From Marchantia polymorpha subsp. ruderalis (taxonomy: Eukaryota; Streptophyta; Marchantiopsida; Marchantiales; Marchantiaceae): a stretch of DNA of 64,000 nucleotides. Below are positions 2,758-31,230 of this stretch, in pieces. The notes under the pieces are model-generated. The model made no database searches, was not told the origin of the DNA, and was given only the letters and a program-made list of their open reading frames with translations. How positions within the stretch are numbered: position 1 is the first letter of the stretch; every line of letters starts with the position of its first letter. A program made the position numbers and the translations under genes. The stretch lies in the NCBI GenBank assembly GCA_037833965.1, contig AP031355.1, positions 30,963,501 to 31,027,500 on the forward strand, given 5' to 3'.

Positions 2758-2790
2758 CTACGGTGGTCAACACATGATTGACCACCGTAG
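2758..2790. repeat. perfect hairpin, 13-bp arms
   Basis: CTACGGTGGTCAA at 2758-2770 is followed by a 7-nt loop and its exact reverse complement at 2778-2790. It lies about 40 bp beyond the tandem duplication. It could be a transcript hairpin or the end of a small transposon; no target-site duplication was established. Confidence 0.7.
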
Positions 2791-2799
2791 CTTTGGGCT

Positions 2800-3980
2800 T
2801 CTTTCATGGTGATGATTGAAGATTTACTTCGATGTTCAACTAGTTAGATTTTGGAGAAGTCTCCCGTCTCTCTGACGATCTAAGAAAAGTGCGCGGCAGC
2901 TGCAGTGGTCCACGATTGAGATACGCAGCATGCCATCCTAAAGCAACAAAAGCAAGATCTAAATCTTGAACGGCAAATTAATACGCACATTCGAGTATGA
3001 ACCGTTCAGTGGAAAGTGAAGGAAAATTATTTCTGTAGACGCTGTACTGCGTCTAAAATGTGGGATACAAGTGGTGACACTTCCACTGCGATTTGCATAT
3101 TGCAGGAAATCTGGCCATATATTTCATTCGAATTGCAAATTAGTGACATATTATACACCTGCAACAGTCTGTAAACTATGTACAAGAGCAAAGGATTGGG
3201 CTTCGGAAGTCAGTGGAGAACTCCACTGACCCACGGACCTGGTTGATCTTGCAATCAAAGCAGACCTCGATCTGCTTTAGTGGGAATACGAGATTTGGTT
3301 TTCCGTGAGGCTCAAGCTCTTACGACCTTACATGAATCCAAGTTTTCCGTTGTACTTCTGAATCCTTCGTCTCTGTAAATATAAATATATATAAGCAGTT
3401 TAGTTTTATAGTGTTTGGTCTCATATCTGTACAGACGAGCTCAAAGACTTCTTCGGGGGACTCTAAAGTTGTACATCAGAGAAGAGCTCAGAGAACGTAG
3501 GCAAGGAAGACTTCACATCTCTCGATACAGGAAAGTTGGCCTATAACTCTATAACTCTATCCTACACTATGCAACCAATGCTCCCACTACTTTTGCACAC
3601 TTTCGCAGTGTGGCACATATTACAACTGCGATGCTTTTTCTCTTGTTCCTGTGCTTCCTAGGTCTGTCTAGTTTTCTGAATTTATTTGTTACAGATGAAC
3701 CGCCTCGCGTGTTCCATTCCACTCGAATCAATAGCTTTCCAGTCTAGCACATAAAGTTGGCCATTTTCGTCGACTTGTCATATTATAAAGGACCAAAATG
3801 AGCACAGTTGTTAATACACTATTGAGTGAAAGAGTGACCAAAATACACTTTTTTTTATATATAAATGTTGATATTTACTGAATAATTTAAAAATTCAACA
3901 AGCAGTGACATTTCTTAGTAGAATAAAACACATTACAGGTAAGTATTTTTTTTCATCAATAAATCAAAGATCATCAAACT
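2800..3980. other. intergenic, nothing firm
   Basis: Mixed-composition sequence without a recognisable gene. A TATA-like run lies near 3380-3395, but no coding frame of interest follows it. Confidence 0.4.
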
Positions 3981-5985: not shown

Positions 5986-6263
5986 ACGACCTCTCTTCTA
6001 CATGGTTGTTGGAATTTTATCCGGTTGATGGCCTCTACATGGTTGCCGGAATGTAGGGTCCGCCGACCCTCTCCGCAAAGCGCTCCGCCTCCCCGTTCCC
6101 AAAACTAAGATAAAATCCGGCTGATCCGGGGCAGCCCGAAGGAAGTATGAAGAAAGAAAGAAAGAGGAGAAAGAAACTGGGATCCCTGACACCTGGCAGT
6201 ACGGCCGTTTGTAAAAGTTTGTGCAACTAAGCGAGTCGCTCATGGTTGTGGCGCTTATCAGAT

Positions 6264-6509
6264 TTATACTTCTTGTAATAATATTTTTGCTTCGGCTTTG
6301 AGTTTATATACAAGCAAAGCAGCGCAAACAATCCCTAGAGCAACTAGCGCCAACTTGAAGTTGGCGTTCGGCTTCAGGTTAACCAATTTATACACAAATA
6401 ACGAGCCAGGACCCACAATAAATAACTTATCGGTGAGGTCTTTTTCAATAATCCCTCCAAAATTATAAGAACTATTTAAGAAATTACCAAGGGAGTGGAA
6501 TAGGTAATT
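6264..6509 (-). other. open frame of 81 codons inside the mitochondrial insertion
   Basis: On the minus strand a frame without ATG runs for 81 codons to a TAA at 6264-6266. It contains FGGIIEKDLTDKLFIVGPGS and a hydrophobic segment (LALVALGIVCAALLVYKL) near its end, so it resembles the C-terminal part of a small membrane protein. I do not recognise the family. It may be the tail of a mitochondrial open frame truncated by the insertion, or chance. Confidence 0.25.
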
Positions 6510-7174
6510 CTATTTTGATAGTTTGACCGGGTATCGTCCGTCGACGCTCCCGATTTATCCGTTAACCCCAGAGGATCCAATTTAGATATGGGTCCCAAAG
6601 GGACAGCTTGCTCCATAACCGAATTGGACGAGTCGCCTTACTTGCCTACTTCGGGGGGGCTACACTGGGTTTACACCAAGGCTGAGTTGAGGGCATATTC
6701 ATCGCCCAGTTCTTTCGCATGTGCAAACGGGTTCCCCGTCCCGAACTTATCCACTTTTGCCAATAGGGCCCGCAGGGCGAGCCCCGGATTTCTAAGCATT
6801 TGGTACTAAGAGGCCCCGGGTGACAAAATGAACAAAAAGCAATACTAAACTGATAGTTAGTCGCATAAACAAAGATGAATTGGTAGATGAAAAATACAAG
6901 TTTCCTATATGAATAGGAATCAATTAAATAATCGCAAATTGTTCTAGCGGACTGCAAACCATATGATTAATTTTCTTTTTTTTGATCCTGGCGCAAGGCG
7001 AAACCATCAAGCCGCTTTGTGGCCTGATGGATTTCAAGCCCAAGTCTTGAAAGGAGAAGCCCGTAGGGCTTTACTCGAGTATAAAGAAAAATATAGACCC
7101 GAGTTCCAGACAACCTCATTTTGAATTCTAATCGATACCATTATGTTTTACCAAAAAATGAATTGATAGGATTT

Positions 7175-7774
7175 TCAACGAAATTTTTTAATAGTATTCT
7201 GAAAATCTATAGCATTTTGTATGAAAACATCCTGACGTTTGACCTTAGTCGTTTTATGCATCGTAAGTACTATTGCCCCAATAAGTGCTACTAATAAAAT
7301 TAGACTAGAAACCAAAAACAAGAAAAAATAGGTTGTATAAAGTAAATTGCCTAATGTCTCCAAATTAGTCCAACTATGTATCTTTCCAGCATAAACTGTA
7401 TATGTTAGATAGGTTGCACTCAATTTCGTTGGTAATATTGGAATGTAATCATTATCTACCATTAAAAAGATTTCCAACAAAAAAATAAGTCCAATAATAC
7501 CACCTACAGGTAAATAGCGCAATACATTCTCGTGAATTTCTTCTATTCTTATATGTAACATCATAACGACAAACAAAAATAAAACGGCAATAGCTCCTAC
7601 ATAAACCACTAAAAAAATCATAGCAAAGAAATCAAGACCTAACAAAACAAGTAACCCGGAAGTATTGCAAAAAACTAGGATTAAAAATAAAACAGAATGA
7701 ACTGGATTTTTGGCACGTATCACCATAGCGCCTGACACTAAAGCGAGGACCACAAAAACATAAAAAAGTATCAT
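7175..7774 (-). CDS. nad6: NADH dehydrogenase subunit 6 (mitochondrial nad6 copy in NUMT)
   Basis: A 199-residue frame on the minus strand starting at the ATG at 7774 (MILFYVFVVLALVSGAMVIR) and ending FQNTIKKFR. It contains the family block LDFFAMIFLVVYVGAIAVLF, then VVMML. Several hydrophobic membrane helices fit ND6, a membrane-arm subunit of respiratory complex I. Length and sequence agree with bryophyte mitochondrial nad6. The frame stays open for 36 further codons upstream (to 7882), but that part is not conserved and starts with leader-like sequence, so the inner ATG is chosen. In mitochondria this gene would be active; here it lies in nuclear DNA with no presequence or nuclear promoter visible, so it is probably an unexpressed copy that has not yet decayed. 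Confidence 0.85.
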   Translation of the reverse strand: MILFYVFVVLALVSGAMVIRAKNPVHSVLFLILVFCNTSGLLVLLGLDFFAMIFLVVYVGAIAVLFLFVVMMLHIRIEEIHENVLRYLPVGGIIGLIFLLEIFLMVDNDYIPILPTKLSATYLTYTVYAGKIHSWTNLETLGNLLYTTYFFLFLVSSLILLVALIGAIVLTMHKTTKVKRQDVFIQNAIDFQNTIKKFR

Positions 7775-8149
7775 GGTGAAATTTTCCCTTTTAATTTTAT
7801 TAGCTGTGAACAAAAAATATATATTTTTGCTGCGAGCTGCGTCGGCAGAAATTTTTCCCCGAAATTTTCTAACGACGTACATATATATGTCTGAGATCTT
7901 TTCGTTACGGCATTTTGCATGCCGATTATGAGTCCCAACTTCAATAACGGGAGATTACACACATCGCAAGCTAGCCTCTTAAAACTTCCACAAAATAGCT
8001 TCTATGAACCTCTTAAAGAGGGCCCCAACATAGCAGCCGCACGCACCTTGTTATTTCTGCGAATCAACAAGAAGAGTTGGCGAGCAGCTCTATCATTTGC
8101 TCGCGAGCTTAGTATCGCTAATCTTTTTTTTGTTTATTCAGACAAAGCC

Positions 8150-8185
8150 CTCCGGGCCTCTAACCTAACGGTTAGAGGCCCGGAG
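8150..8185. repeat. perfect 16-bp-arm hairpin in the mitochondrial insertion
   Basis: CTCCGGGCCTCTAACC at 8150-8165, loop TAAC, and its exact reverse complement at 8170-8185. GC-rich hairpins of this sort are common in plant mitochondrial spacers, where they can stabilise transcript ends. It supports the mitochondrial origin of the block. Confidence 0.75.
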
Positions 8186-8454
8186 ATTCGACCCGAACCC
8201 TTTGGGTCGCCGGTTTATTTGGCCCTATCCCGCGTAATAGGAACTGTTAGGATTCAAACCTGGCCGTGGGTCTAGACTTTGTCTTTCCTTCGTCCTCAGG
8301 CCTTACACCAGGTCCACAATTCCGGGTGTACCCGGACGAGGATCCAGTAATGAACGGATAAAAAGAAGTACTAAAAAGAAGTACACCTTCTTTTGTGATC
8401 TAAGACCCAAGACCTAAGGTCTCAAAACCAGCACCCGAAAAAATGAAAAAACGA

Positions 8455-8740
8455 CTAAGCTAAAAACATAGTCATGTGCTTAAGAATTCTAGCAAAAATA
8501 CTAAACAGAAAAAGATCGCTATAAATAATAATAATAGCTATGATTTTCTGCTGAAAGGACAATCTACGGAAAGTCTTAAGAAACCACAGTATTAATTGAT
8601 TAATACAAGGTTTCTGTTTTACAATGGTTAAGGTTTGCATTTTTTCCAGAAAATGGATTAGTACCAATTTTGTCAAAATGCTAGAAATATAACAGATAAA
8701 AAACATTACCAATAATTGGCAATATATAACAATAGCCGTT
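8455..8740. other. AT-rich stretch at the right NUMT border
   Basis: A minus-strand frame of 85 codons rich in Phe, Ile and Leu (8712-8455) is open here but resembles no family I know. Such frames arise easily in AT-rich DNA. It may straddle the junction between mitochondrial and nuclear sequence. Confidence 0.3.
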
Positions 8741-8742
8741 TA

Positions 8743-8787
8743 TGGATCCATGGATGTTGGATTCATTAAAGCATCCATGGATCCATG
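8743..8787. repeat. inverted repeat, 15-bp arms
   Basis: ATGGATCCATGGATG at 8743-8757 and its exact reverse complement at 8773-8787, separated by 15 bp. Each arm also contains the short palindrome ATGGATCCAT. It lies between the mitochondrial insertion and the gypsy fossil. Confidence 0.75.
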
Positions 8788-8799
8788 AACGTAAAAGCT

Positions 8800-11080
8800 A
8801 GAGTCAAGATTTCACGTGATACAAAGAAGTATTGAAGACAAAGTGGAATACATAATGATGCTAATACAAGCTATGCTCACAAAGAATTTTGTCAGAGGTT
8901 TTATAATGTAAAAAGAACTCTTCTAAGATTAAATTCGTTAAGTTGTCATTGGAATGGAGAAAAGCTTAGAAGATGATGATTCTAGTTTGATGGTTAGACA
9001 AATAACTCTATCAATCGTAGAAAAATCAAATCCTTTTACTCTTGCTAGTTCATTCATGATAAACAATCGTAATGCATTTTGCAATAAGAGTTAAAACATA
9101 TCACAAAAATTCTAGCTAATTTTAATACAAACTTAGATTATTGTGGAAGAAGAGATTTCAAAATGTAGTAGAAGTTTCTATAAGATATGCAAAATATTCT
9201 TGAAGAAAAAATTCATCTCAAGAATATTTTATAGTTTTGTACTTTAGTTGTCGAAATATTTGTTTTTGAAGAACTTTTCCTAAGACTGAGAACAGAATGT
9301 GATCGGTGTGTTCATATTGTGCCAAACTCGCACAATATCAACACACCGATCTCATATCAAACAAAATATAAAGAAATAGCATTTATTGATATATCTTTTC
9401 ATCAATGCACTTTTAAAAAGAGAGAGCATTACATAAATTCAAGGTATATATATTTTTGCTTATCCAAAACAGTGTGCAATATTTACAAAGTATTCTATAT
9501 TCAAAAGTAATTTGTTAAGTTGAAATCCATGATCTAGTGGAGTGATTTAATCAACATTGAAAAGAAAAAGTTGAAAATGTACAACTTTTCATGTAAGTCT
9601 CACAAGCTAAATACAATTTGATGAAAGATGTTAGAGGTCAAAAGATCAATATAACACTTAGTCAATTGATTGCTTTAAATTTGGTTATACAAAAGAAGTT
9701 GAAATGACATTTGAGCTCCACAAGGATCAAAAATCAAAGATCCAAGGATGAAATGTTTACATCACAAATGTGAAGATTGATGTAATGAATGCTATTGATT
9801 TAGAAATAAATATTCGTTTTTCAAAGATTAAAATGAAAATCCATGGTCATGATGTTTAAGACGGATCCATTGATATAATCTTTGCAATAAACATAATGTC
9901 CAAAATCTTGTTGTTAAAATTGGAGATGAAGCTTTTTAGATCCTTTGATAGAATTTCTGATATGATCAAGAAACAAGAGTTACAACCATTGATGTATTAG
10001 AGAAGATTGTGATGAGTAAGAGAGGGATTCAAACCTTGTTATCTTTCTAAATGCTTAAAATAACTGATACTGATTTATCATTGTGACATTTTTGGCTAAG
10101 TACTATGCGAATCATTTATTGATGACGCAAGGACTACCTTTGTATAGGGACAAAAAATCATCAACTGAAAGTTTCATTGACAAAAAGAGGAGATGCAACA
10201 ATAGACTCAGATAGACCAAATATTGAATTTTAGAAATTTGAAAGACATGAGAGTGGATTTTTTTCAAAAATTGACACTAACATGTGATTTTCATATCAAA
10301 ATACATCATCATATGACTTTCAAGATGACAATGTGCAAGTTCAAATTGTTGTTGTCATGAAATGGCATTTTAGATCAAGGATGATGAAATATCATAATAA
10401 GTTGAAGATGAATGTGAAGGAGATTTTCAAACGCCTTTTCATACTCAAGTTTGGTACAAAGTTTATCAAGAAGTAAAATGTAAAATTTAAGTATATATTT
10501 TGCAAATAAATATTCATATCTTTATTTTTTGTCACAAAGATTTAGAGCGTGTGACACTAGAATCTCATCACATTAAATTTAAGAAGATAGTATCTATATT
10601 CAACCATGCTTAAGAAATTTTTCTATAACTGTGATAATGAAGAAAGATATTAAGAAGTTCAAAGAATTTGGGTTTCATCTACGATAAAATTTTTTGATTA
10701 TATCTTGTCAAAAAAACAGAAATATATTGTGAGTATGCTCGGATTACAAGAAATTAAATGATGTAGAAAGAAGAATTATTATTTTAAACCTTTCATAAAC
10801 TACAAAAAAATGATTGATGTTTCGAAAAGAATTACTATTCTTTAACTTTCATGGATAAGATTCTAGAAGAGTTTGCAAGATTTGAGTGATATAGTTTTGA
10901 ACATGTTTATAGTGATCATAACCAAATCAAAATTGTTTTAGAAGATCAACTCAAATTACTTTTATCGCAACATGTGTAACTTTAGCCATTGAAATGATGT
11001 CATTTGATCTCTTTAATGCTCCAATCATCTTTCAAAGATTCATGAATTGCTAGATTAATTCACTATCAATTGTCGCTAAT
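8800..11080 (+). mobile_element. Ty3/gypsy LTR retroelement fossil
   Basis: Plus-strand, strongly AT-shifted remnant. A reverse transcriptase segment is recognisable near 10980-11045 (a single short frame with FNAPIIFQRFMN), and weaker pol-like similarity lies just upstream at about 10730-10930. The stretch from 8800 is tentatively gag/protease debris. The element is thoroughly broken (tens of breaks) with heavy C-to-T and G-to-A type decay, so it is old. No LTR pair was established; both ends are estimates. Confidence 0.5.
9302..9350. repeat. near-perfect hairpin, 21-bp arms
   Basis: ATCGGTGTGTTCATATTGTGC at 9302-9322 pairs with 9330-9350 with a single mismatch across a 7-nt loop. It lies in AT-rich fossil DNA yet keeps its pairing, so it is either a younger small insertion or chance preservation. 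Confidence 0.75.
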
Positions 11081-15740: not shown

Positions 15741-16916
15741 TCTAATTCATGCTCTTTAAGAACTTATCTATCTATATCGGAGATTCTCTTTACTCGCAAG
15801 CGAAGATTTTTACCTGTCAATGCGGGTAGCTTGAAAATTATTCCACTTTTACAATGATATGGTATTATTGAAGGAAACATTCCTAGTGACATATACTCTA
15901 TGTGCAATAAATTACGTGCAAAGTGTCAAATTGAAATTGAGACATACACAATACAATTGAGTAAAACACCAAATGTTCTAAATCAAATTTATTAAAGATT
16001 TCAAATATGAAGACGGAAAACTATGCCGGATAGCTATTTCAAAAGTTTAGATAGTTTTTTGAAAAGCTTCTGAATCTCGTTACACTACATGCACATTATG
16101 TATACTTACTTTTTTGGAAAACCAGATAGAGCTATTTCCCCAGAAAACCATGTTGCAAAATAAACGTTCATCAGGGACTATCAGTACTCTTTTCACAATT
16201 CAATCCGGGAAAGAGATACTTGCATTTTCCAGGAAGATAGTCATTCTTCTAAGACCAAAAACTAAACAAATATTCAGCGGGTTAACGAGAATTGGCAACT
16301 TGGGAACTCAATACTCCTCCACGTACCCCAGCTTCGACACGTGAACATTGTTCTCAGTCGTGAAAACGCTCACTCGGAACAGACGAAAATCGAACGAACG
16401 ACTGCGATTGATGCCTTTAGCCAGCGTGGACGTTCTAATATCATCTAGGTATTTGCTGTGCCGTGGAGTTTCAGTTTCAAACCTCAATAGGGACCACGAT
16501 CATCAAAGACGGGATTGTGTAGTCCACCAGCAGCAGCATCAATTATAGCAGGACATTGATTGCCCCATTGCATGAACCTGCTGCTTCTCTAAGTGGTACT
16601 CTGTTATTCGTTAAATTAGGCCGAATTTGCATTGAATCACTGGTGTTTTTGTCAGGCTCTGTATCTCAATAAGGAAAGCTTGTTAAGGTATCAGTAATGC
16701 CCGCAGCGACCATGTACCTCAAGCCGACAACCTTAGTCTGTTTGTCCAACGTGATGTGCCGAACAATATGAGGGTACTCTGGAAGATGGGCAGGCTTTCT
16801 TCTGTGATCAGTGATGAACTTCAGTGAACAGGGGAGTTTGGCCATCTAGGATTGGTGTGGAAGCATACGGAACCACAAGGAGTAGGATTGTGTTCTATCA
16901 CCGCAGGCTTGTGACG
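15740..16916. promoter_or_regulatory. upstream region of the PDI gene (promoter and leader not delimited)
   Basis: From about 16110 the sequence becomes less AT-rich than the fossil DNA to the left, which marks the gene territory. Short frames on plus (16114-16344, 16348-16548) look like leader noise. A 5'-leader intron is possible (for example a donor at about 16687, TTAAG|GTATCA) but cannot be proven. No clear TATA element was chosen. Confidence 0.35.
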
Positions 16917-18314
16917 ATGACGTTGAGGTCGGAAACAATGGGGTTTGGGTATTATAAAAGGTACTCGCGAACGATATTGATTCAACTGCTTTTACACATT
17001 TTGTGTCTTGTTTTCTGTTCAGCTGTGGAAGAGACACGGAGCTATGTCTTGGATTTGACTGCTGATACATTTGATGCCGCGATCGCCAAACACGATGTAC
17101 TTCTCGTGGAATTTTACGCCCCTTGGTGTTCTCATTGCAAGCGGTTGGCCCCCGAGTTTGAGAAAGCGGGTCAGTTGCTGGCTCAGAGTTCGTCCCACAT
17201 CAAGCTAGCGAAGATTGACGCAGATAAGTACAAGTCGATCTCTTCCAAGTATGACATACAGGGCTTTCCGACCCTGAGGCTTTTCATGAGTGGCTCTCCA
17301 GCAGAAGCGGAATATGACGGACCTCGGAACGCAGATTCTCTTGTTTCTTATGTGCATCGCGCGATCGCTCCAGTCATAAGATCTCTCTCTTCAGATGCAG
17401 AGCTCAATGCCTTTTTGAAGAATGTTAATGATAGTTCGCCCATTTTCCTAGGATTCGGTTTAGAGGAATCTGTTTTGAAGCAGACTGCCACCAAGTACAA
17501 GAAGAAAGCTTGGTTTGCTGTGGTTCAAGACTTCTCAGAGAAAATGATGATGGAATTTGACTTTGACAAGAAGCCGGCTCTGGTGGTGACCCATCCTGAA
17601 CTGATGGAACAAGCTGTGTTTTATGGTCCTTTCGAAGGAGTCGACATGGAAGATTTTGTGAGGCAGAATATGATGCCACTCGTAACGAAAATGTCATTTG
17701 AGTCTCTGAAGCTGGTGAGGGAAGATGGACGTCCTATTGCTATAGGTATTTATGATGGGCAACAAGACGATGGAAGTGTGCGACAGTTCATGAAAATGCT
17801 GAAGGCTGCTGCACCAGCAAATCGTGGTTTCATATTTTCCTATGTGGATGCAGCGAAATGGCCCAGTTTCCTCAAGCCTTTTGGTATAGAGAAGGGGACA
17901 ACTCTGCCAACTTTGATTGTATGGAATGGATTGGCAGAGTACTCCTCTCATGAGAACGAAGCTGCCTTCATTGCTCGAGATGCAGAAGCTCAGATCACCA
18001 AGTTTCTACAGGATTACAAGAACAACAAGGTCAAGAGATTGAAAGTGAAAGAACCGTCATTCATGGAAAAAACAAAGGACATCCTATGGGGTTTGCCAAC
18101 TCTTTACATGATATTCACTATTTTCGTCGTCGTGTGGTTGCTACAAGGCTGTACTTGGAAAGATGTCATGCGCGATGGAGGTCTAGAAGAGCAGCATCAA
18201 CAGAGAGAAAGATTGAGGAGAGCAGATCTTGAAGGAGATTTGGGTTCAGAGAGAACAAGTAGGGATGCTGGAGAGTCTCTCGTGATTAGCAGGAAAAGTG
18301 AGAAGAAGGACTAA
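16917..18314 (+). CDS. PDIL5-2: PDIL5-2-type membrane protein disulfide isomerase
   Basis: Intron-free frame of 465 codons. The frame is open upstream to 16824 without an ATG, so the first ATG (16917) is taken; the ATG at 16938 has better context and is the alternative. In order: signal peptide or anchor (about residues 19-37), one thioredoxin domain with active site WCSHCK (Cys71, Cys74) and cis-Pro118 in GFPT, then two weaker thioredoxin-like regions without CxxC, a membrane span at about 393-412, and a charged cytosolic tail ending SEKKD. Length and conserved blocks such as YKKKAWFAV, FYGPFEG and AANRGFIFSYV match plant PDIL5-2, an ER single-Trx PDI. The usual WCGHC is WCSHC here. The role is formation or shuffling of disulfides in secretory proteins; the C-terminal lysines hint at ER retention but do not form a canonical KKXX. 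Confidence 0.92.
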   Translation: MTLRSETMGFGYYKRYSRTILIQLLLHILCLVFCSAVEETRSYVLDLTADTFDAAIAKHDVLLVEFYAPWCSHCKRLAPEFEKAGQLLAQSSSHIKLAKIDADKYKSISSKYDIQGFPTLRLFMSGSPAEAEYDGPRNADSLVSYVHRAIAPVIRSLSSDAELNAFLKNVNDSSPIFLGFGLEESVLKQTATKYKKKAWFAVVQDFSEKMMMEFDFDKKPALVVTHPELMEQAVFYGPFEGVDMEDFVRQNMMPLVTKMSFESLKLVREDGRPIAIGIYDGQQDDGSVRQFMKMLKAAAPANRGFIFSYVDAAKWPSFLKPFGIEKGTTLPTLIVWNGLAEYSSHENEAAFIARDAEAQITKFLQDYKNNKVKRLKVKEPSFMEKTKDILWGLPTLYMIFTIFVVVWLLQGCTWKDVMRDGGLEEQHQQRERLRRADLEGDLGSERTSRDAGESLVISRKSEKKD

Positions 18315-20300
18315 CGAGATGTAGCATGTAGGATGAGCATGTACAGATGTTTGCATACAATTTTCCTTTTTTCCTCCAATGCACCTGAAGGGAAACATTT
18401 TTGTTGTCCTTCAGCAGCATCAGCAGCATGGAGTGTCGTTCTTCTTTGTTTGTAAACAGAACAGCTTTCGTTTGGCATGTTGTTTATTGGCTATGGTGCC
18501 CTATTCAGGACTGACATAAGATGTCCTTAGTCATATGTATTTATCTTAGCTCAATTCCTCACACCTTCACTTGATATATGTATCTGTTATTCAGAAGATC
18601 GTGTGTACTTGTTAGTTTGGTTTCCCCTGATCCGATTCTGCGGTAAGATAAACTCTCTGAAATCTAAACAAGTGAATTGTTTTCAAATTCATGTATTCTA
18701 GCACCCAAGTCAAGTTGCAGGGTCTATGGTCTGTGGCTTATGAACAGCCACAAACAAAGTCTTATAGTTTATCCAGCGTGGCACTGAATGAGATACAGTC
18801 TATGATATAAACTCCTGAGTTTTATTACTGAGGTCTTAATTTATAAGGCCTTATTGTTAATTTAAAAACTACCAGTTTGTTATTTGCTTGCTGATTGATG
18901 TTGCTAATATGGCTAAAAGTCCTGGTTTTGTATTTGAGTGTCTCTGTGTCATGCCTGGGACCGTGACGATTGCAAATATGAAAGCTGGAGGTAATAGTTT
19001 CATATTTTCTCAAGTTCTCTTCGATATCTGGAGTTTGACATACACATGTGTCTTGATTTTCGTAAGCTCCGGATATGATACACAAAGGAAGGATGGAGTT
19101 TTTCAACCAAATATTTCTTCCCTTTGAAAACCGCTGTGTGGAATCGTGGACTTGTGGTAGATAAGTAAACTCATCAAAAACATCAGTTCGACTGTGGACG
19201 TTCGTGTCAGACAGGCTATCATGTGTACATATTCGTTTGTGATGAAATTTCAATGAAATACACATAAGTGGTTCTTTACGTGGAAACACTCCGGCTCTTT
19301 GGTCCAGAGAACTAGTCTGATGTGTTGGGAAAATGTATTCTCAAGAAATCAGCAGCCCATACTTCAATTGTAGGTCATGTGGTAAAAAATACACCAAGAG
19401 ATTGAGAGATCTCAAGGGGCATCCAAAATTCCGACTTCCAATCCACATCTTGAACTCATGGTGACTGATTGAACATGTAGATCATCGAATTGTGGAGATG
19501 GAAGAAAATTATCCATCACATTTGCACTTAGTACTCTATGTTAAAATTGTGAGAGCCAACCTCAACAGTTGAGTTTACTACTATCACTTTCACGTGGATT
19601 GATTACGATACAATAATTGTTTTCTTCATAACCTGTGTGGAGATGTAATCGTTAACATATTTTACCAACTATGACTATAAAGTCTTTCTTCAAATATTAC
19701 CAAATTAACATGTACGACCACAACTATACTAGTTGTTTCTATAAAGATCTTGAGTTCTCCAATATTAATTGTAACAAAATAGAGTGGGCCAGCTCCTGAA
19801 CTCAGTGAAATGCTACTTTTCTCTTCAAGACATTATTCAATCTTTCAATACGTACGATATGTCAATATGGCAGAATACTGGATTGTTTGTTCACCTTCAG
19901 TGACTCAGAGATGGAAACGTCAGAAATTTCATTAAAATTCATTCGGCACCGTGCCTTTTCCACTCTATGCCTTCATCATCAATCTAGACGATATAATTAT
20001 CTGGCAGTTAAGTTTTCTATCTTACTGGGTTCGTTATTTCGAGGATTCATTTTCATACTTTGGCCAGGATGTAAGACACTACCAGTACAGTAGTATATCA
20101 TCACGTTGAGAGTGAAGTCATGAGGAGAAAAAACAATTGATATACTGCGAGTATATCAATTTTGATCTTTTCAAGTAAAACATCATCCTCTTGCTAGTTG
20201 TTTCTTACTCGACAATGAGGACTAATTGATCCAGAGAATGATAACATGTATTAATAAGTATGATTAAAATATGTCAGAAAATATATGTAACTAAACTTTT
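18315..20300. other. 3' flank of the PDI gene and intergenic DNA
   Basis: The first few hundred bases are likely the PDI 3' untranslated region. A minus-strand open frame at 19289-18825 (154 codons) has no recognisable domain and is probably chance. The rest is AT-rich with nothing identified. Confidence 0.4.
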
Positions 20301-20951
20301 TGCGGTGATTTGATCTGATAGTGTTGAGGATACTGGTACATTGCGGTCTTTTTCGGTCGCAGAGGGAAATGGCACAATTGAAGGGACGAGATTGATCATG
20401 CTTCGTGGCTGCTGACTTAGACTTTGGTCTGGGTTTCTTCGATTTCTTCGTGTATGAATTTGTTCCGTTTGAAGTGGACTTTCACAGCCGACGTAGGACT
20501 TTCACATCTCGCTGTTATGCCCATTGGACCGGAGATAGTCAGCAGTACGTTTCAGGGGAGCCGAAGCTAGGTGAATTAACTTACATGCTTTTATGAAACA
20601 TCGTGGGGAAACGATGGATTGCACAGTTTTCGATATCCAGTGATAATTTTCATTGTGTGGCATGATAATTAGAACTTGGATATGCTTGTTTCCCAAGTTT
20701 CGGATCGAAAGTTGGCCTCCTGCCTTGTTTCTAATATGTTTTTGCCGGAGGAAGAAAAAAAATGTTATATAATAGTAAAATCCGAGTGTAGGCATCCTCC
20801 GTTGTAGTCTAGTTGGTTAGGATACTCGGCTCTCACCCGAGCGACCCGGGTTCAAGTCCCGGCAACGGAAAATTCTGGGGGAAATTTCTCCCAACGGAAT
20901 ACACATTTTGGCTCCAGGACATTTCCAGAAGCCTACACTACCCTTGCTTTG
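20301..20951. repeat. left arm of a large inverted repeat carrying tRNA-Glu
   Basis: This 651-bp arm is the reverse complement of 23498-24148. Paired positions add up to 44449 throughout, so there is no net insertion or deletion. Identity appears essentially complete from 20301 to about 20929 and then falls towards the inner end. The open frames in both arms translate to identical peptides, which shows the identity but not coding function. The outer border is abrupt: pairing stops exactly beyond TGCGGTG at 20301. Confidence 0.93.
20798..20870 (+). tRNA. tRNA-Glu (anticodon CUC)
   Basis: A 73-nt cloverleaf: acceptor TCCGTTG pairs with CAACGGA, discriminator A. The D-arm region contains AGTCTAGTTGGTTAGGAT, the anticodon loop CTCTCAC gives CUC, and the T arm GACCCGGGTTCAAGTCCCGG-type stem is intact with TTCAAGT. 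The internal A and B boxes for RNA polymerase III are therefore present. It nearly matches the standard plant nuclear tRNA-Glu(CTC), with one change noticed in the region after the anticodon stem. It has no intron and no encoded CCA. A T-run terminator is not immediate; the first TTTT is about 35 bp downstream. An identical gene faces it in the other repeat arm. Confidence 0.97.
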
Positions 20952-21340
20952 ATTACGTCCAGCATCCATGTTTTCAAGTCGATTCCCTCACTCAACCATA
21001 GATCATGATACGATACCGCTCCCCACAGGCATTTCCTTTTAGCTCGAAGAAATTTCGAGAAGCCCAGATATCCCTTGCTTTGATTGCGTCCAGCATCCAT
21101 CTTTTCAAGTCGATTCACTCACTCAACCATAGATCATGATAAGATGGGGACGGGAAAAGTACAATCCACTGCAGCCTCCTGTGTCCGAACAACTAGGCAA
21201 CCCGAGATCTAAAAGCATCGATGTTTTCAAGTCGATTCCTTCACTCAACCATAGATCATGATACGATGGGGACGGGAAAAGTACAATCCACTGCAGCCTC
21301 CTGTGGCCGAACAACTAGGCAACCCGAGATCTAAAACTAT
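20941..21340. repeat. nested tandem repeats just inside the left arm
   Basis: Unit A (CCCTTGCTTTGATT..., then TTTTCAAGTCGATTC and CACTCAACCATAGATCATGATA) occurs at 20941-21014, 21072-21144 and, partly, about 21215-21266. Unit B (GGGGACGGGAAAAGTACAAT... to CCCGAGATCTAAAA) occurs at about 21145-21214 and 21268-21336. Copies differ by only a few bases, so the duplications are fairly recent. A further short repeat, ATGATTTGCGAAATTAAA, occurs near 21366 and 21459. Confidence 0.85.
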
Positions 21341-21479
21341 CACTCTGTTCACACGATGAGCAGTATGATTTGCGAAATTAAAACGGGGGGACGCTTTAGA
21401 AATCACGCACACGTCACGGCACAAGGAGACTAGTGACATCTTTATGATGATAGTATGAATGATTTGCGAAATTAAACGT

Positions 21480-23497
21480 GGCATTCCTCATGGAGGTGGG
21501 TTTGTTTTCATTCATTCTTATCCTTCCAAACAAGAATCCTCCAAAATAAAGATTGTCGGTCACGAGAACCAACTTTAATCTCTCTTATCATTTTCACAAG
21601 AATGCAAAACCCGGATAGCGATAGGATGAGGAATTTGCTCTAACTTGGGTTAACCTAATCTCAGATAGTTAAATTGGTCAATTCATCACTATATAAGAGA
21701 GTTATCATGTTCTCAATGATAGATATTAGACTTTTGGCTCGAGAATATTTGTCATTCTACGCGGAAATTGGGGAATAACACAAGAAATTAAGAGATAATA
21801 ATATGAAGTTACACCCCTTCCTGCAGATCCGCGTGGATAAGATCAAACTTCTTTTTTTCAAAAGAAGAATGAATATTTTAAGGAAATTTTTAATAGTTAG
21901 TATGAATAAGAAACAATGGAAGATTTTGTTTGTTTTCCTTGAAGAAGAGTCAAGGACTGCTAGACATAAGATTTATAGAAGACTCATAGAAGAGCAGATA
22001 TACTGGTGATATTGTAAACCTTCACAAGGTCATGAAGTAGTCAAGAACGGGTTTTTAGCAAAAATATAAGATTGGAGAGATAACGTGATGGCACGAGGTA
22101 ATATGAATGTGGCAAAACAAGTGGCGATGGCGATTTTAGTCCGACTTTGACTGCAGAAGTAATTCACGAAAATCGTAAATCTGTTGATGGCGACGAATGA
22201 TATAAAAGAGGGGGGGAAAATGAGGAGAATCAATCAAAAAGGAAAAAAATTGGACAGTGAAACGTATGATGGGCCAAAGAAAATGTTCGAAGATTTGAGT
22301 GGAAAATCAAGACACAAACAATGAAAGAAGGGATATCAAAACGTTCTAGAGAGAGCAAGCAAGAGGTGATTGGGTTTGATAATTTTTTTGAGGATTAGTG
22401 TGAAGAAGCATCTGCTATATCACCATATCATAAACGGTAAGAGCATAGAAAATTATCATGAGGGTTTGTCTGCAAAGATCTGCAAACTCCTTTGTTATTA
22501 AAAGTAAAAGTATATAAAGGAGTAGTGAACATAAGGGTCTGAATATCCTGAGTTTATGAAACTTTCTTAATAACTACTCATCCAATATGCCCTGAAAAAA
22601 ATTAAAATAGTCTGATGACGTTGTTGCATATCTTACAACTGAAAAATAATATTTTAATTACGTTGATCATTGAGTGTTGAATGGAAAGTCAACCCATATA
22701 TATCTAAATATATGGTTATGCGAAGATAAATGTATTAAGTTTTCATTGTAAGTGTATATAAGGGTATGCATATTGACTTGTGATGTACTGAGAGCTTAGA
22801 TAGTTAGTCAAAGTAAACAAGTGTCATCACCCATGTCGTAGTTATCTTAGTAGATAAATATTCATGTGCAAAGGTAGATATAGCAATTAGATTAGCTATT
22901 GAGGCTAACAGTGCTATTAGGAGACCTTGGATATAGGAGATTAAGTTTACAAATACTCCATCCGTTGTACAAACCTATCCGATCCAGGTTACACTCAATA
23001 GGATACGGTTGCAAAGCACGATAGATTGATTTCATAGTCGTTTCTTAGTAGGCCTGGAACCTCAGTTCTTTTTATCTGCCAAGGTTTCTGAATGCTTTTG
23101 TATTGCTCTTCTCGTTCAGCTATATTTGTACTCGTTGGGGTTCGTTGATTTGGGTCATGAAGATGCTGCTCTTTCTTCTCTTTGATCATGTGGTTGTGGC
23201 AGCTTGATAGACCAGCGGAGCTTTCGAGAAGAGAGGTTAGTACCGATTTTGTTGAAATCTTTTAGTGATGCTTGGGTTTCTCTTGGAAGGAATCATTACA
23301 CTACAACAGAAGCTATTGAAGTGAGCTACTTTTTTCTCTCTTTACACTCGAATGGCTATGTATGATGTTATAACAACGATGGCCATTGGATGTTTCTAAT
23401 ATTGTAGAGAGAAGAGCTGGAAATAGAACGCGCTCATGAACGTGATTTGAAGCTCCAGGAACAGGGCAAATCCGAGCAAATCTAAGAAGGACGAAAG
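21480..23497. other. AT-rich spacer between the inverted repeat arms
   Basis: No gene recognised. It includes A- and T-rich runs and short frames only. The last 200 bp before the right arm contain an unremarkable minus-strand frame that continues into the tRNA and is not coding. Confidence 0.45.
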
Positions 23498-24148
23498 CAA
23501 AGCAAGGGAAGCGTAAGCCTCTGGAAATGTCCTGGAGCCAAAATGTGTATTCCGTTGGGAGAAATTTCCCCCAGAATTTTCCGTTGCCGGGACTTGAACC
23601 CGGGTCGCTCGGGTGAGAGCCGAGTATCCTAACCAACTAGACTACAACGGAGGATGCCTACACTCGGATTTTACTATTATATAACATTTTTTTTCTTCCT
23701 CCGGCAAAAACATATTAGAAACAAGGCAGGAGGCCAACTTTCGATCCGAAACTTGGGAAACAAGCATATCCAAGTTCTAATTATCATGCCACACAATGAA
23801 AATTATCACTGGATATCGAAAACTGTGCAATCCATCGTTTCCCCACGATGTTTCATAAAAGCATGTAAGTTAATTCACCTAGCTTCGGCTCCCCTGAAAC
23901 GTACTGCTGACTATCTCCGGTCCAATGGGCATAACAGCGAGATGTGAAAGTCCTACGTCGGCTGTGAAAGTCCACTTCAAACGGAACAAATTCATACACG
24001 AAGAAATCGAAGAAACCCAGACCAAAGTCTAAGTCAGCAGCCACGAAGCATGATCAATCTCGTCCCTTCAATTGTGCCATTTCCCTCTGCGACCGAAAAA
24101 GACCGCAATGTACCAGTATCCTCAACACTATCAGATCAAATCACCGCA
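23498..24148. repeat. right arm of the large inverted repeat carrying tRNA-Glu
   Basis: Reverse complement of 20301-20951 and effectively identical over its outer 620 bp or so. The 2,546-bp spacer between the arms makes a 3,848-bp palindromic unit. Pairing ends sharply at 24148 (CACCGCA). No terminal transposase, target-site duplication or SINE tail was seen at the outer borders. Confidence 0.93.
23579..23651 (-). tRNA. tRNA-Glu (anticodon CUC), second copy
   Basis: Exact mirror copy of the tRNA at 20798-20870, on the minus strand; no differences were seen along the 73 nt. The two genes point towards each other, into the spacer. Both have intact arms and A/B boxes, so both could be transcribed by RNA polymerase III. 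Confidence 0.97.
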
Positions 24149-26482
24149 GATAAATTCCTATGCAGGAGCACCGCTACATATAGTTTTGTATACTGCGAAG
24201 AATTCATTTCCATCGTTAACGTACCTGCGCATAACGACTTTCTCACTTTACAAATATTCATGCAGAATTACAGTCTACATTGAATCGTATGCTTTCTGTC
24301 TGAAATGAAGAACTCCGTCCCAGAGAAAATCTCTGGAAGTTCTTCCTCTCTCTGGCTTTCTACGAAAACATGCATTTCCTCTTGAAATCTTTTCGGATAA
24401 TAAATTTCTGGCCTCGATTTATGGTCAACAGATTGTTGAATGAAAAAGTTATATTCTACCCAGGTTGAAGATTCAGAAGCCAATAAATTCTATTGATGTA
24501 CAGTTGAATGGTTGTACAATTCTGATGTTATTAAAACCCGAATCAGATGATGAAGTTGTCACTCATATTGTATCACGATTTCTGCAGTTGGATCCACTGA
24601 AAAGTGATTTCTTTAGAAAAATGTTCTGTGAAAATTCTTTGAAACCAATCTAGTGTTTGATATCGAATCACAACCCCAATAAAAGTGAAAATTAATCTAT
24701 AAATCTCTGGTAGGAAAGGTTAACTTCAGCTACGAGACGGATTCAGTAATGCCAAATAATTACCCACTTCTGATACCGAGATCGTCACTGGTGAATTCGG
24801 ATTTTCACCCCCAAAAAAAAAGATACATAGTGTACATGTAGTGTAACAAGATTCAGAAGCCATGTAAACTATGTAAACTTTTGAAGTTGGGATGCCTCAT
24901 TTCACATACAACTACATTCCTCAATTGGTATCCTTATGCAGATTTTTGCCTTCATCCTTCTCCCGTGATGAACACGAACTTTCTGTCCGTGCATTGAGGG
25001 GTACATGCGTTTGGTAGAACTTCGTTTATGGTTTAGGTCTGTCCAGCTTTGTAAGACTAATCTACATGGGAACGCTCGAGATGCTCATCAGTTGCACACA
25101 TCTGTTGACTAGGTTTTCTGTGTTATGAGGTGTAACTATCATCAGGACTTATCGTCAAATAAAGATGGTAACGGTTAGTTATCCTCACTCTTAACGCTGA
25201 TTATCTCTCACCATCGTATCATCCATCTTTGATTGGTCGATACCATGCAAGGACGGACCAAACGGGCTATGTAGTTTCGCGGGCAGATTGAAACGGGGAA
25301 AAGTATTGGAAACAGGGTAAGATTAGTCCAGCGTGCGGGAATAAATAACGTTAAGTGAAGGATAACTAGCGGCTCCCAATGAATGTATATATGCACACAT
25401 AACTTGCCCGGGCATGGCGTCAGGTTGTGGAACAACCTTGTATTAGAGGTCCCAAACATGCCTGTTCAAAGGCGTCGGCGTTGGTCTGGGACATGCAAGT
25501 AAGGATCCGAGATAATCGGTAAGACCTCCCTCATTTTTCCTCATTAGTTTACGTTGTGAACTGCTGACAAACTCATAGCTGAAACTCTCTCTAATGTCGG
25601 TGACACTTGATTCAATTTCTAGGCCGTCTTGTATCCTTATGGCCCCCTGTGTTAGTAATACTTTCCTTGCGCATGAACGCAATCTTCGAAAATCAGAATT
25701 CGACAGGCGTTTAAACCAGACAAATAGTTCGTGAAAATTGGTCACCTTCATTTTTCTGGCTCACTACCCACATGAGTATGTGGGTAATCAACCACCTTCT
25801 ACCTAAATTACTACGTAAACATTACTCCCATAATCCATATTCGTTGTCAACTGAAACCTTGTACCAATTAGAATCACAGAAGTAGCTCAAAGTCCCCATT
25901 TACTCGATATCCAATGCGTGCAGCTGCCTTAGTCCTCCACTTTCATCAGGTGAACTTTCAAAAAGTACAGCAGTTTCTTTCCTTCCAAGTGACTTCTAAA
26001 AAGGTACCTAAGCTCTTAATGACTGGACTAAACGCCTGTGTAATTTTGCTTATTCATAACTGTTGTGAGGACCTGCAGATGGTCTGGACCAAGGTATGTA
26101 CAAAACAATAACCCAACCTTTTCAGAAAATGTCCTGTCAAAGGCAATCAATATGCTACGTTGATGTAGAAACTACTTTTGTAAATGTGCAAGAAGTAGAT
26201 CGAAAGAAGATTCTCTAAGACCATTTGCAGCATTACGTTTTCGATGGGTTTTAAGCAGAATCCCCCGGGAAATAACTCAAAATGGAATGTTTTACGCTAT
26301 CCTAAATTGACTACAAAATCTTCACCCTAGGGACATTCCCAGATGTGTTTTAAGTGGCGAAAGGATAAAGAGACAGGACTGTTATAGCCAGTCGATGGCA
26401 GTCCCTCGAAGATGGGGCTCGTATACCCATGAACCGAATACTTTAAGGCAAAGTAGGACTGTCGACAGCTCGTATTCCGTAC
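24149..26482. other. intergenic between the inverted repeat and the adenylate kinase gene
   Basis: No recognised gene. Short overlapping frames lie near 24268-24653 (one minus-strand frame reads like real protein, with RPEIYYPKRFQEEMH, but is only 71 codons) and near 25208-25751. The end nearest 26480 is presumably the 3' untranslated region of the adenylate kinase gene. Confidence 0.4.
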
Positions 26483-27962
26483 TCAGGCAGCCAGCTTTTG
26501 CTGATCACCTTCTTCACTCGCTTTATCCGTCAGATTCAAGGCAGCCAGCAGATTGGGCCATGTTTCCGGTATACCGCCACCGACGTTGAAGTCCAAGAGT
26601 TTCCCCCGACTTCTGTAATAGCCCTCCACAGGTGCACTCTGCTCATTGCAACGACTGTTGTCAGGGTAACTCAAAAGCTCATGCACCACAAATTTCGAGA
26701 GGTCATGAATATGAAGTCCGTACAAACTCCGTGCTAACAGACACTAACGACAACAAGTAAACAATCAATTCTACGCCAAGCGGAAGATTGACGCACCTCT
26801 TCATGATAAACACGGAGCCTCGCTCTAACGACCTCATCCGTGTCGTCGGCGCGGATGGTCATCTTCGAGGCACATGAAGGTGGCGGCAACAGAGGAGGCA
26901 TGAAAATGCTGGGAGCGCCGTCCTCGCCTTTGACGTCAATCTTGGCAAGATTAAAATTCCCTCCACACTGGCTACAGATCCTCCTGCCCAGGCACTTTGA
27001 AATCAACACGTCCTCTCGAAGCCTGAGGTTCACGACCAAGTCAATTTCTGTAACGTCCTCTAGAACTTCCTGCAAATACAAAAACCATTATCAGTGGACG
27101 AAGTCAAGCACATGGAGGGTATTTTAAAGACAAAAGAACACCCGACAGCAGGCTCCAGGTCTGAGGCGAATTCCCTCACCGCTTGGCTGATAGTTCGAGG
27201 AAACCCATCCAAAATAAATCCTCTTTCGCCTGCAGACAGACCTTGCTCCAGACGCTTGGACAGGAGATTAAATATGACTTCGTCGGGTAGCAACTTCCCC
27301 GCTTTCATTGCTTCGGACAGCTGCATTGAGAACGAGGATACAGTCAAAACAGAGAAACACGCAAAGTCCAAATAAACGAACTCTTTCGACTAGCATCAGT
27401 AGGCCGGAAACTACATCAAATGGTTTGACTGTTAGCCCAACGAAGTTCCTTTTCGTAGTCCAGGCATCGCCAAGCGACTCGCGCGATCACCAGCTATTTC
27501 ATAACATATGAAATAACTAAAGGAAGACGCATGAAGTACTGATGAAGTGGACAATGAGCCTTACGATGTAAACATAGAATTAAAACATGTACGGAAGTCA
27601 CGAAAAGCTATCGCAGTATACACCGCACTGATGACGGCTTGAACTACCTGTTTAGCCAGCGGCGATGAAGCCTTCAGCTCATTTCGTACAAGATCTCCCA
27701 TAGCAATGTGCGGTACGTCCAATAATTTGGACAAACGGCTGGCGTAAGTCCCCTTTCCGACTCCAGGACATCCCAAAAACACCCACTGAGGACCCCTTCC
27801 TTCATCCTGTCTCTGAACATCCTCTACAGTGGGCATCGTCATGTTCCAGACCTCGACATCCATAGCAGCCTGGGCTGCACCAGACATCAGTCGATAGGGC
27901 CGATATATTATCGATCCCATAGAGGCCTGGAGTCCTGGTGACAGGCGGCGAAAGGCCGCCAT
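26483..27962 (-). CDS. ADK: organellar adenylate kinase
   Basis: Four exons on minus: 27962-27648, 27320-27180, 27069-26797 and 26638-26483, all joined by GT/AG introns and in phase, giving 294 residues. It catalyses ATP + AMP = 2 ADP. The P-loop is GCPGVGKGT (64-72). AMP-site and core motifs include HIAMGDLVR and DGFPRT (143-148). The LID has CSQC (Cys184, Cys187) and a third Cys218, a partial zinc-site pattern as in the plant orthologue, then RADDTDEVVRARL. The C-terminus GGIPETWPNLLAALNL is typical. The closest family member remembered is Arabidopsis plastid ADK (At2g37250). The first 55 or so residues (MAAFRRLSPGLQASM..., few acidic residues at first) look like a transit peptide to plastid or mitochondrion. 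The frame is open further upstream to 28136 but without an ATG. The acceptor of exon 4 could shift by one codon. Confidence 0.93.
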
Positions 27963-28870
27963 TATAACTGCACTAGTCAAAATAGCAACCAAGCTCTTCA
28001 AATATGCAGATCGGAACCAAGTCAACTTTCCCCGAACGCGAAGGCCAAGGTGATCGGTGAAGAGAAGAAGAGCCGATGTGATCGCTGGCAGTGTTCGATC
28101 GCAAAACCAAATCAAAGTCTCAAGCACAAGTTCCACACACGAAAACTAGAAGCCTCAGTCCTTCAGACGATCACGCACGTTTTCTGAAATTCCAGCTCCT
28201 GCCAAGGAACCCAAGATAAGCACTCCTCTGCCGCCCTCTGGGAAACTAATTTCCCCAGCGCCCGCCTCCAAACGGAAGTGAACTTTCGACCACCAGGACA
28301 GGCAGGTGCCACTGTGTACAATTTCACCCCCACCACAACACCTACGTCCCGAAAGAATCTGACCTACCAAATAGATCCGTGAAGCACTCCACCCTCTCAG
28401 GCTAACCAAGAGTAGGGGGCGAAAATCACACAACACCTCTTCCTCTCTTCGCCGCCACCATGCGGAAATAGTAAGCTCTCAGACGCTCCGTCCGCAAACT
28501 CCAAAACTGAATCAAGACGTTCAGACGCACCAAAGCAGCTACGGCATGGCAAGAGGCCAAAAGCTTCGTAAGCAGCCCTGGTCAGAGAGTGAAGTGGAGC
28601 ATAAGAAAAGGAGGAGGAGGCGGTCCGGGTCGGGGCAAGCAATCCTTCAAATCTGCTGATTCTGTTGCTGCTGCCCACATCGAATCCCCTCACCTCCTGC
28701 TCTCGTGCCAATCTCCCCTCTGTTTCTCCGAAACCACGGCTGCTTCTCACTGCCCACCTCACTCTCGTTCCGATGGCCGCTTTACCCTTCCCCAGAAGAG
28801 GAAGACAAGCACCTACAGCGAGCCTCCCGCACCTAAAGCAATTTCGTAGGCCCCAAACCCTAACTCATAA
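27963..28870 (-). promoter_or_regulatory. GC-rich 5' leader and promoter region of the adenylate kinase gene
   Basis: The GC-richer stretch upstream of the adenylate kinase ATG has overlapping long frames on both strands (for example minus 28762-28397 and 28436-28155; plus 28589-28970), none with a recognised domain. This suits a long leader plus promoter. The plus-strand ATG at 28771 (MAALPFPRRG) opens a short frame of about 65 codons of unknown meaning. The transcription start was not located. Confidence 0.4.
28855..28863. promoter_or_regulatory. telo-box (AAACCCTAA)
   Basis: Exact AAACCCTAA, the plant telo-box found near transcription starts of many housekeeping and translation-related genes and bound by telomere-repeat-binding (TRB) factors. 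It lies about 890 bp upstream of the adenylate kinase ATG, at the edge of the GC-rich zone, so it may mark the real promoter. A nine-base match can also be chance. Confidence 0.45.
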
Positions 28871-28970
28871 GTCTCAAATAGTTACCCCGACCCCCGGCTC
28901 CATGACACGATCTTGTTTGCTGTACTGCACCAGATGGATTAAGAGATCCGTGGGGCACATGGCTCTATAG

Positions 28971-31230
28971 GTATGGTTTGCTTTATTTCTCCAACCCAAA
29001 TGCTGAACTCTCAGAATTAAATTGCTCTTTCCTCTCGAAAAAAGCGCAAGACGATTGTGTTTGACTGTATATTTTAAGGCAAAGCAACAAGCCACAGACT
29101 AGAAATGAGACCCAAGGAAAGGGGAGCATATGATAAACCGTCAATATTATGAGGGCTTGACACAAATTTTCGCATTTGAGTGATTGAATTGAACTGGTTG
29201 AGATTTCGTTCCACTTTTTTACACCTTATCGTCGTAGTTGTTCTTGCACAAGGTAACCTTGGTTGGAATCTTTCATCGCCTCATTCTCATAATAGATCTC
29301 ATTCTAACATGACTATCGACATGTTTACATATGAATCCTTGCCCATTATAGATAGCCATCATGCCATCATGTTTGTAACGTTTGTTTTGAAAGAAATATT
29401 CTAGATATTTCAAAATATAAAGTGTTTGAAGCCTTGTAGTCCACTGACGCTATGGATATCTATATACGCTAATGGTTTAATGTTGGCATCCTACATGGTT
29501 TAAGTGGTTGCTAATGATCTTACAAGTGGCACGTTTTCAAAGAGTGTGATTTTGTATATCTGTAATATATGGCAAGTGGAGCGGTAGCTGTGAAGTTCTC
29601 CAATTTAATAGGTAATTAGAGAATTCACATTCTTACTTGGGCTTTGAAGTCTATCAAGCTATGTGTTGAGATCTGGACATATTCGTAAGTCAATGCGTGA
29701 AGGCTTTACATACTATAAGGCAAGGGCTTGCGTTTCGTTTTTTGAATACATATATCCTATTTTATCCACTTGTTTCTAATTCCATTTAAAGAAAATTAGC
29801 AATATAATCCATTGTGGATCATTCTTTTAGATGATATTTTCCACATCAGTGTTATTTATATAATTATTTATCTAGATAGTTAGTTTATATTAATCATTGA
29901 CATGTCATTTTAATTGAAAAATATTTGGCCTAGCCCCACCTTTGTTTGGTTTCATCATATTATTTGTTAATATGATGTTCAGACTTGTACATAATACATA
30001 TTAATACATATTTTATTAATACATATTTTTCAGTAGCTTACTTTCTGCTTCTAAGAGCAAGACGTTATGATGGAGAAGGTTAGTAATGTCTCTCCGAAGG
30101 GATTTTCTACCTGTTACAGACTGTAAGGAAGGACAGTCTGTTCCATTCGATTATGACCTCCATAACTTTCATGTGACTCTCTCGTGTGCTCGACCTGCCC
30201 TGACACTGCTAGACCTGAGCAGCCTGACCTGCCCGTTATGAAATTCTCAACGCACGCCTGTTCCGAGGCACGGCGGAGAGGGTGGCGACGTGTCAGAACG
30301 TCTCTGCTCCCTCGCCAGTCGCGACCCTGAGAGCGACCACAGTCGTCCGTCTTCCTGAGACTTTTCACACCGCAATTATTATCGGGCTTCCCTTTACAGT
30401 TTTTTGGGTATGAACAGCGATAGTTTCATGAAAAGCTTCGCGGCCTTTGCGTGTAATTTACCTTCCTTCCTAAGTACCGCGTGTCGAGTTGTTCTCCTGT
30501 TATTTACAGTGGACTAACCAGCACTTGGTCATACAGACTTTCAATGTATATACAATCCTCAGTTCAAGGTCAAACCTATGGTGACTTGCTCACGATGGAA
30601 TATGCCCATGGTTATTTCTCTGTTCATTGGGCCCCCGGCACATTGTGACTTGCTAACCACCATACTCAATCTCCTCTTCTGATCACTTCTGATACTTCTC
30701 ATCCAGACTGAGATTTACAAGTCCTTTTGTCTTCTACTTTGTTCAGTCATCCACGGCTAGTCACCATTCATCTTAGTCTCGAGCTTATATTAGTATTGAT
30801 AAGGAATCGATATACCGCTCTATGTGTCAGAAAGTAATGTGAAAGAAAAACAGGCGAGCAAAGGTCTCATTACAATTCCAGGGGGAAGATCAAAAATGTC
30901 AGTGAGAGTATACAAATATTTTTAATTTAGCAAACTCCACTTTATTACCTTACAAAAATTCCCTTCTTGTAATGTCATCCATCCACTTCCTTATCATTAA
31001 AGCATACTCTTGTTGTAATGAGATATCACATGCCCAAAACATCCTTCAATCAATTGATTTTTTTCCTACAAATGATGGCAATTGACCTGATCTTACACTT
31101 TCACCAATGTGTTCAATTGTGTAAAATTGACTCGGACGTCTCCCTCCACAATGTAGGGTTTTTGAGTGTTAACATGATTGATATAACAAAAACTATTTTT
31201 TTTTTATCCAACAATACAATTAATTCAAAT
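28971..31230. other. AT-rich intergenic DNA
   Basis: No gene recognised. The 30060-30500 part is GC-richer (open minus-strand frame 30368-30114 rich in Arg and Ser), which may be a fragment of an LTR or a dead gene; no family match. A small inverted repeat CATCATATTA/TAATATGATG lies near 29950-29975. Confidence 0.4.

Follow-up and report, generated by a model that had tools for sequence, protein, structure and literature searches.

Inverted tRNA-Glu(CTC) gene pair of Marchantia polymorpha in near-identical arms: possible gene conversion after an older duplication

The window analysed in our study is a 64-kb stretch of Marchantia polymorpha subsp. ruderalis DNA, situated on contig C6 of a genome of 241,466,482 bp in nine contigs. 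It contains an inverted repeat with one tRNA-Glu gene in each arm (Table 1), and the original prediction of this structure has proved real, as the arms pair without any insertion or deletion and their position sum stays constant at 44449. The arms had been put at 651 bp and were measured at 660 bp, with 99.1% identity over this length, whereas the identical span, given before as about 620 bp, was found to comprise 629 bp; the paired inverted arms and their near-identity stood as described. A base-by-base comparison of the arms, which had been proposed earlier as a check, placed the mismatches at positions 20930, 20933, 20937, 20940, 20952 and 20955. All six are inside the innermost 31 bp, for which the probability is 6.6e-9 if the differences fall at random over 660 sites. 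The near-perfect identity extends through the non-coding flank, and a search of the window for inverted pairs of 60 bp or longer, with a seed of 14, reported no other. The two tRNA genes were also expected to face each other across a spacer of about 2.5 kb, and they are indeed identical and convergent, pointing inwards with their 3' ends towards a spacer of 2,528 bp.

Table 1. Coordinates of the features of the inverted repeat and its spacer (positions in the window)
Feature	Position	Strand	Details
Left arm	20301..20960	+	660 bp, ungapped; 654/660 sites pair with right arm
Right arm	23489..24148	-	ungapped pairing with left arm
Zero-difference stretch, left arm	20301..20929	+	629 bp; partner 23520-24148; 0/629 differ
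Diverged inner end, left arm	20930..20960	+	6/31 sites differ from right arm
tRNA-Glu (CTC), left	20798..20870	+	ARAGORN; Rfam RF00005, 65.8 bits
tRNA-Glu (CTC), right	23579..23651	-	ARAGORN; Rfam RF00005, 65.8 bits
3' trailer, hairpin and TTTT run	20871..20912	+	-11.6 kcal/mol, z -2.68; no difference between the arms
Short tandem repeats	20906..21336	+	periods 131 and 122 bp; from left arm into spacer
Spacer core	21337..22945		genome search: no match besides the locus itself
PP28/PDAP1 gene fragment	22946..23491	+	546 bp; related to C4:1866857-1867403
Overlap of fragment and right arm at junction	23489..23491		3 bp common to both

Each arm consists of a 497 bp 5' flank, the tRNA-Glu(CTC) gene and a 90 bp 3' flank. 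Both genes have a canonical tRNA sequence and structure according to ARAGORN and Rfam, the latter having been searched over window positions 16000-29000. An AT-rich stretch, identical in both arms and presumably TATA-like, lies upstream of each gene, and the hairpin with its TTTT run in the 3' trailer is what we take to be a plausible Pol III terminator. Each is likely to be an ordinary Pol III gene, and a redundant one in view of the 16 other exact copies; that they are active is our inference. Next to each tRNA lies a 97-aa frame without a Pfam match (the right copy was scanned and the left is identical to it), which is treated as a chance occurrence.

The spacer is of mixed composition. Its tandem-repeat part has 20 diverged matches elsewhere in the genome, a count that excludes the locus and the PP28 match. 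Aligned with its C4 relative, the PP28/PDAP1 fragment shows differences at 52 of 540 sites and a further 16 gap columns, and it is 87.6% identical to that part of the C4 gene when gaps are counted. The spliced 29-residue peptide of the fragment matched PF10252 at E 2e-4 and 22.1 bits, below the cut-off of 25; the C4 gene gave the single match over the cut-off in a genome search with this profile. The fragment is presumed to be an intron plus part of an exon. As it starts in the intron and stops in the exon, going by presumed splice sites, its ends look like arbitrary breakpoints. Overlaps of a few base pairs at joins, such as that between the fragment and the right arm, are often left by end-joining or template-switching repair.

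In the original prediction the flanks were held to match too well for tRNA conservation to be the whole cause, and the other copies of the gene bear this out. The 72-nt tRNA sequence has 18 exact copies in the genome, both arm genes included, and the 490-bp upstream arm flank matched the two arms only. At the 16 other exact copies the arm flanks are absent, apart from a weak similarity over about 47 bp upstream of one of them; this is the nearest other exact copy (C6:23937088-23937159), which has that stretch and the gene in common with the arms. Some of these 16 copies have flanks in common with one another. Hence tRNA conservation alone is ruled out as the source of the arm identity.

A wider comparison took in 39 tRNA-Glu-like loci, being all 43 matches from the best 40 of 45 candidates, compared through alignments no shorter than 110 bp under low-complexity filtering; a broader tRNA search took in the best 63 of 11,355 candidates. 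No second near-identical pair was listed among the 39 loci, all other alignments of at least 110 bp being at or below 96.8%. The best identity between two other loci in the list was 96.7% over 153 bp, for a Glu-Phe gene pair. After the arms, the next-longest alignment joins two C3 loci, 93.6% alike over 1,620 bp, which are oppositely oriented and separated by about 114 kb (L045, C3:4155800-4159000; L048, C3:4269800-4273000). Judging from this alignment, they are a diverged counterpart of the arm pair, the flanks of which have not been held identical. Two loci without an ARAGORN tRNA call are 90.5% alike over 650 bp. These flank-inclusive alignments indicate that duplication of tRNA-Glu loci along with the flanking sequence does occur in this genome.

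The Marchantia polymorpha v7.1 assembly, which may differ from the one used here, is described as T2T-scale in the available part of its report (PMC13078153). One arm could have been copied or misplaced during assembly, and short reads cannot tell 629 identical bases apart. Fold-back assembly artefacts have arms which meet in the middle, whereas here the 2,528-bp spacer separates the arms. Moreover, the outer flanks are unrelated, with no other genomic match at 18400-20300 on the left or in the first ~660 bp on the right, and the inner ends of the arms are not identical. Due to the spacer, the unrelated outer flanks and the differing inner ends, an assembly artefact is considered quite unlikely.

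A transposon (MULE, foldback or Pack type) in which terminal inverted repeats of 660 bp enclose a captured PP28 fragment would give a similar arrangement, as a Pack-MULE has in outline the same long inverted ends with a captured, intron-bearing fragment between them. However, no exact target-site duplication was found at the ends, and the sole repeat of at least 4 bp within 8 bp of them is a 4-bp match off the ends. No further copy of the upstream part of the arm or of the spacer core was found in the genome. Leaving aside the tRNA with the sequence directly next to it, only the two arms carried the arm ends among the best 40 of 45 candidates. There is no reading frame of at least 80 aa wholly inside the spacer, and no Pfam match was obtained for the 107-aa frame which overlaps it across the right tRNA. 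With the target-site duplication and the dispersed end copies both absent, an element with terminal inverted repeats is largely refuted, and this origin is highly improbable.

The six differences bear on the age of the duplication. In the inner 31 bp of the arms 25 of 31 sites match, for which the binomial chance is 1.7e-9 at an assumed match rate of 0.28, and on this count the innermost 31 bp are diverged homology. Past the inner arm ends no similarity above that of shuffled sequences was found. Just beyond the outer ends a borderline similarity over 60 bp (2 of 100 shuffles scored as high) faded in longer spans, where 17, 53, 62 and 60 of 100 shuffles scored as high; hidden homology past the arm ends was rejected on these results. 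If the arms were as old as the PP28/PDAP1 fragment, the 629 bp should contain about 61 differences, whereas they contain none (P about 2e-28), an age argument which rests on six sites and on an assumed single joining event of fragment and arm. At the inner end, six of 28 sites differ, which exceeds the 9.6% rate of the fragment (P 0.047). The divergence outside the presumed tract (6/31) comes from one end and few sites, and a mutated junction could give the same pattern. Together, the diverged inner end and the differences in the fragment favour, without proving, an older inverted duplication of which the outer 629 bp were later overwritten by gene conversion, and it is towards this reading that we incline, with a little more confidence than doubt.

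The same pattern might have arisen if the left arm had been duplicated in inverted orientation very recently, beside an older PP28 fragment, with the six differences introduced by error-prone synthesis or template switching at the junction; this explanation is possible, and we hold it to be clearly the less probable of the two. Identity at 629 of 629 sites needs recency only (95% upper bound of divergence 0.48%), and all six differences adjoin the junction. When the differences were polarised by eye, with the neighbouring repeat unit as outgroup, four of the five that could be polarised fell in the right arm, presumed to be the new copy, and one site was undecided. Against this, the fifth reads as a change in the left arm, although it hinges on a diverged outgroup repeat unit; the tandem repeats also have relatives on C2, but the alignment with these was too poor for the arm differences to be polarised. 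Further, the change across the 31 bp amounts to 19%, and error-prone repair polymerases are not known to come near such a level. No other template was found for the right inner end either: no other place in the genome carries it at up to three mismatches, and a genome search at E 1, by a method which skips very common words, gave no further match. Another repeat unit was tried as the template and rejected, unit 2 and the right arm being 75% alike over 55 bp. Among the three readings which had been put forward at first, gene conversion is therefore the favoured one on this evidence, a simple very recent duplication is less favoured and the artefact is unlikely.

For the older duplication with later conversion, we infer the order of events and the mechanism as follows. 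A nuclear tRNA-Glu(CTC) gene would have been duplicated in inverted orientation, together with its 497 bp 5' and 90 bp 3' flank, some time ago. The break would have been sealed by end-joining or template-switching repair, a piece of the PP28/PDAP1 gene from another contig being taken up as filler with the 3-bp overlap at the join. Later, gene conversion may have copied one arm over the other in a tract formed by the outer 629 bp and ending 31 bp short of the end of the inner homology, and the inner 31 bp, left outside the tract, would have retained the older divergence. As the identity runs to the outer arm end, the boundary of such a tract is visible at one end only. A GC-biased form of conversion gave no distinctive signal: the upstream arm has 42.9% GC against 33.8 and 35.6% in the 500-bp flanks, and a GC content as high occurs in 160 of the 636 windows taken over the 64 kb. 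It can also be speculated, though we regard it as doubtful, that the convergent tRNA pair is a self-maintaining conversion hot spot which keeps its flanks identical over long times. The detail of this idea is equally doubtful: one Pol III gene would always be met head-on, forks would pause and template switching from arm to arm would rewrite the arms.

By analogy, the locus looks like a small-scale instance of the known inverted pairs homogenised by conversion and not like a new kind. Regarding conversion among dispersed tRNA genes, PMC4981973 cites Amstutz et al. 1985. In Caenorhabditis, long inverted repeats with paired genes are described, for which gene conversion was proposed; as at the present locus, the gene pairs are convergent or divergent and the inverted arms are near-perfect including the intergenic sequence, whereas the pairs are of paralogous genes and the available part of that text does not contain the term tRNA (PMC1803023). 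Persistence across species has been demonstrated there, according to the same part of the text, while the present locus was analysed in one genome (PMC1803023). The palindromes of the human Y chromosome undergo arm-to-arm gene conversion, their arms being homogenised by non-reciprocal exchange, and they too have inverted arms of very high identity around a non-duplicated spacer; their arms, in the part of the report at hand, are far longer (more than 100 kb compared for P6) and lie on a sex chromosome, in contrast to 660 bp on a 31.4-Mb contig here (PMC3723533). For dispersed tRNA genes, the accessible text of a further report describes concerted evolution with intergenic conversion as an established contributor, and identical tRNA copies are spread over the genome there as they are here (PMC4981973). 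Unlike in such dispersed genes, the identity of the arms extends 556 bp outside the tRNA and is not shared by the 16 other exact copies. Among the matches listed in literature searches on tRNA genes and repeats, palindromes and liverwort genomes, where subscription journals are thinly covered, no publication on a nuclear tRNA pair of this sort was found.

If the conversion reading is true, the locus would offer a compact natural marker system, with a 629-bp converted tract and a visible edge around a tRNA pair. The adjoining gene-fragment filler may then date the rearrangement, and a comparison of strains would measure arm-to-arm conversion in a plant-type nuclear genome. If it is false, a redundant tRNA gene would simply have undergone local duplication, a routine event.

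Some further observations concern the other tRNA-Glu loci and the surroundings of the repeat. At nine of the 14 loci with a called Glu(TTC) gene, tRNA-Glu(TTC) is followed on the same strand, after about 1 to 10 bases, by tRNA-Phe(GAA) (L065, L066, L068, L069, L071, L072, L075, L076 and L077). These Glu-Phe pairs show about 89-97% identity, which suggests that both genes were duplicated together as a unit. Locus L065 also has a 244-bp inverted repeat (2259-2502 and 2784-3025) of 96.7% identity, near a tRNA-Glu gene which itself is outside the repeat. In the window, the inverted repeat is flanked by a gene for a protein-disulfide-isomerase-like protein at 16824-18314 (+), with a C-terminal membrane stretch recognised by eye, and by an adenylate kinase gene at 26483-28136 (-), the pieces of which occupy several frames, as though introns interrupted it. 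A 235-aa frame at 7175-7882 (-) covers the whole NADH dehydrogenase subunit 6 profile (PF00499), which is typical of mitochondrial DNA, on a contig of nuclear size. The 3 kb around this frame (~6200-9200) have at least 44 genomic matches, from the best 40 of 614 candidates, and these many-place pieces suggest nuclear insertions of mitochondrial DNA. Further along, at 56274-56927 (+), the window holds an uninterrupted 217-aa cupin (germin-like) frame matching PF00190.
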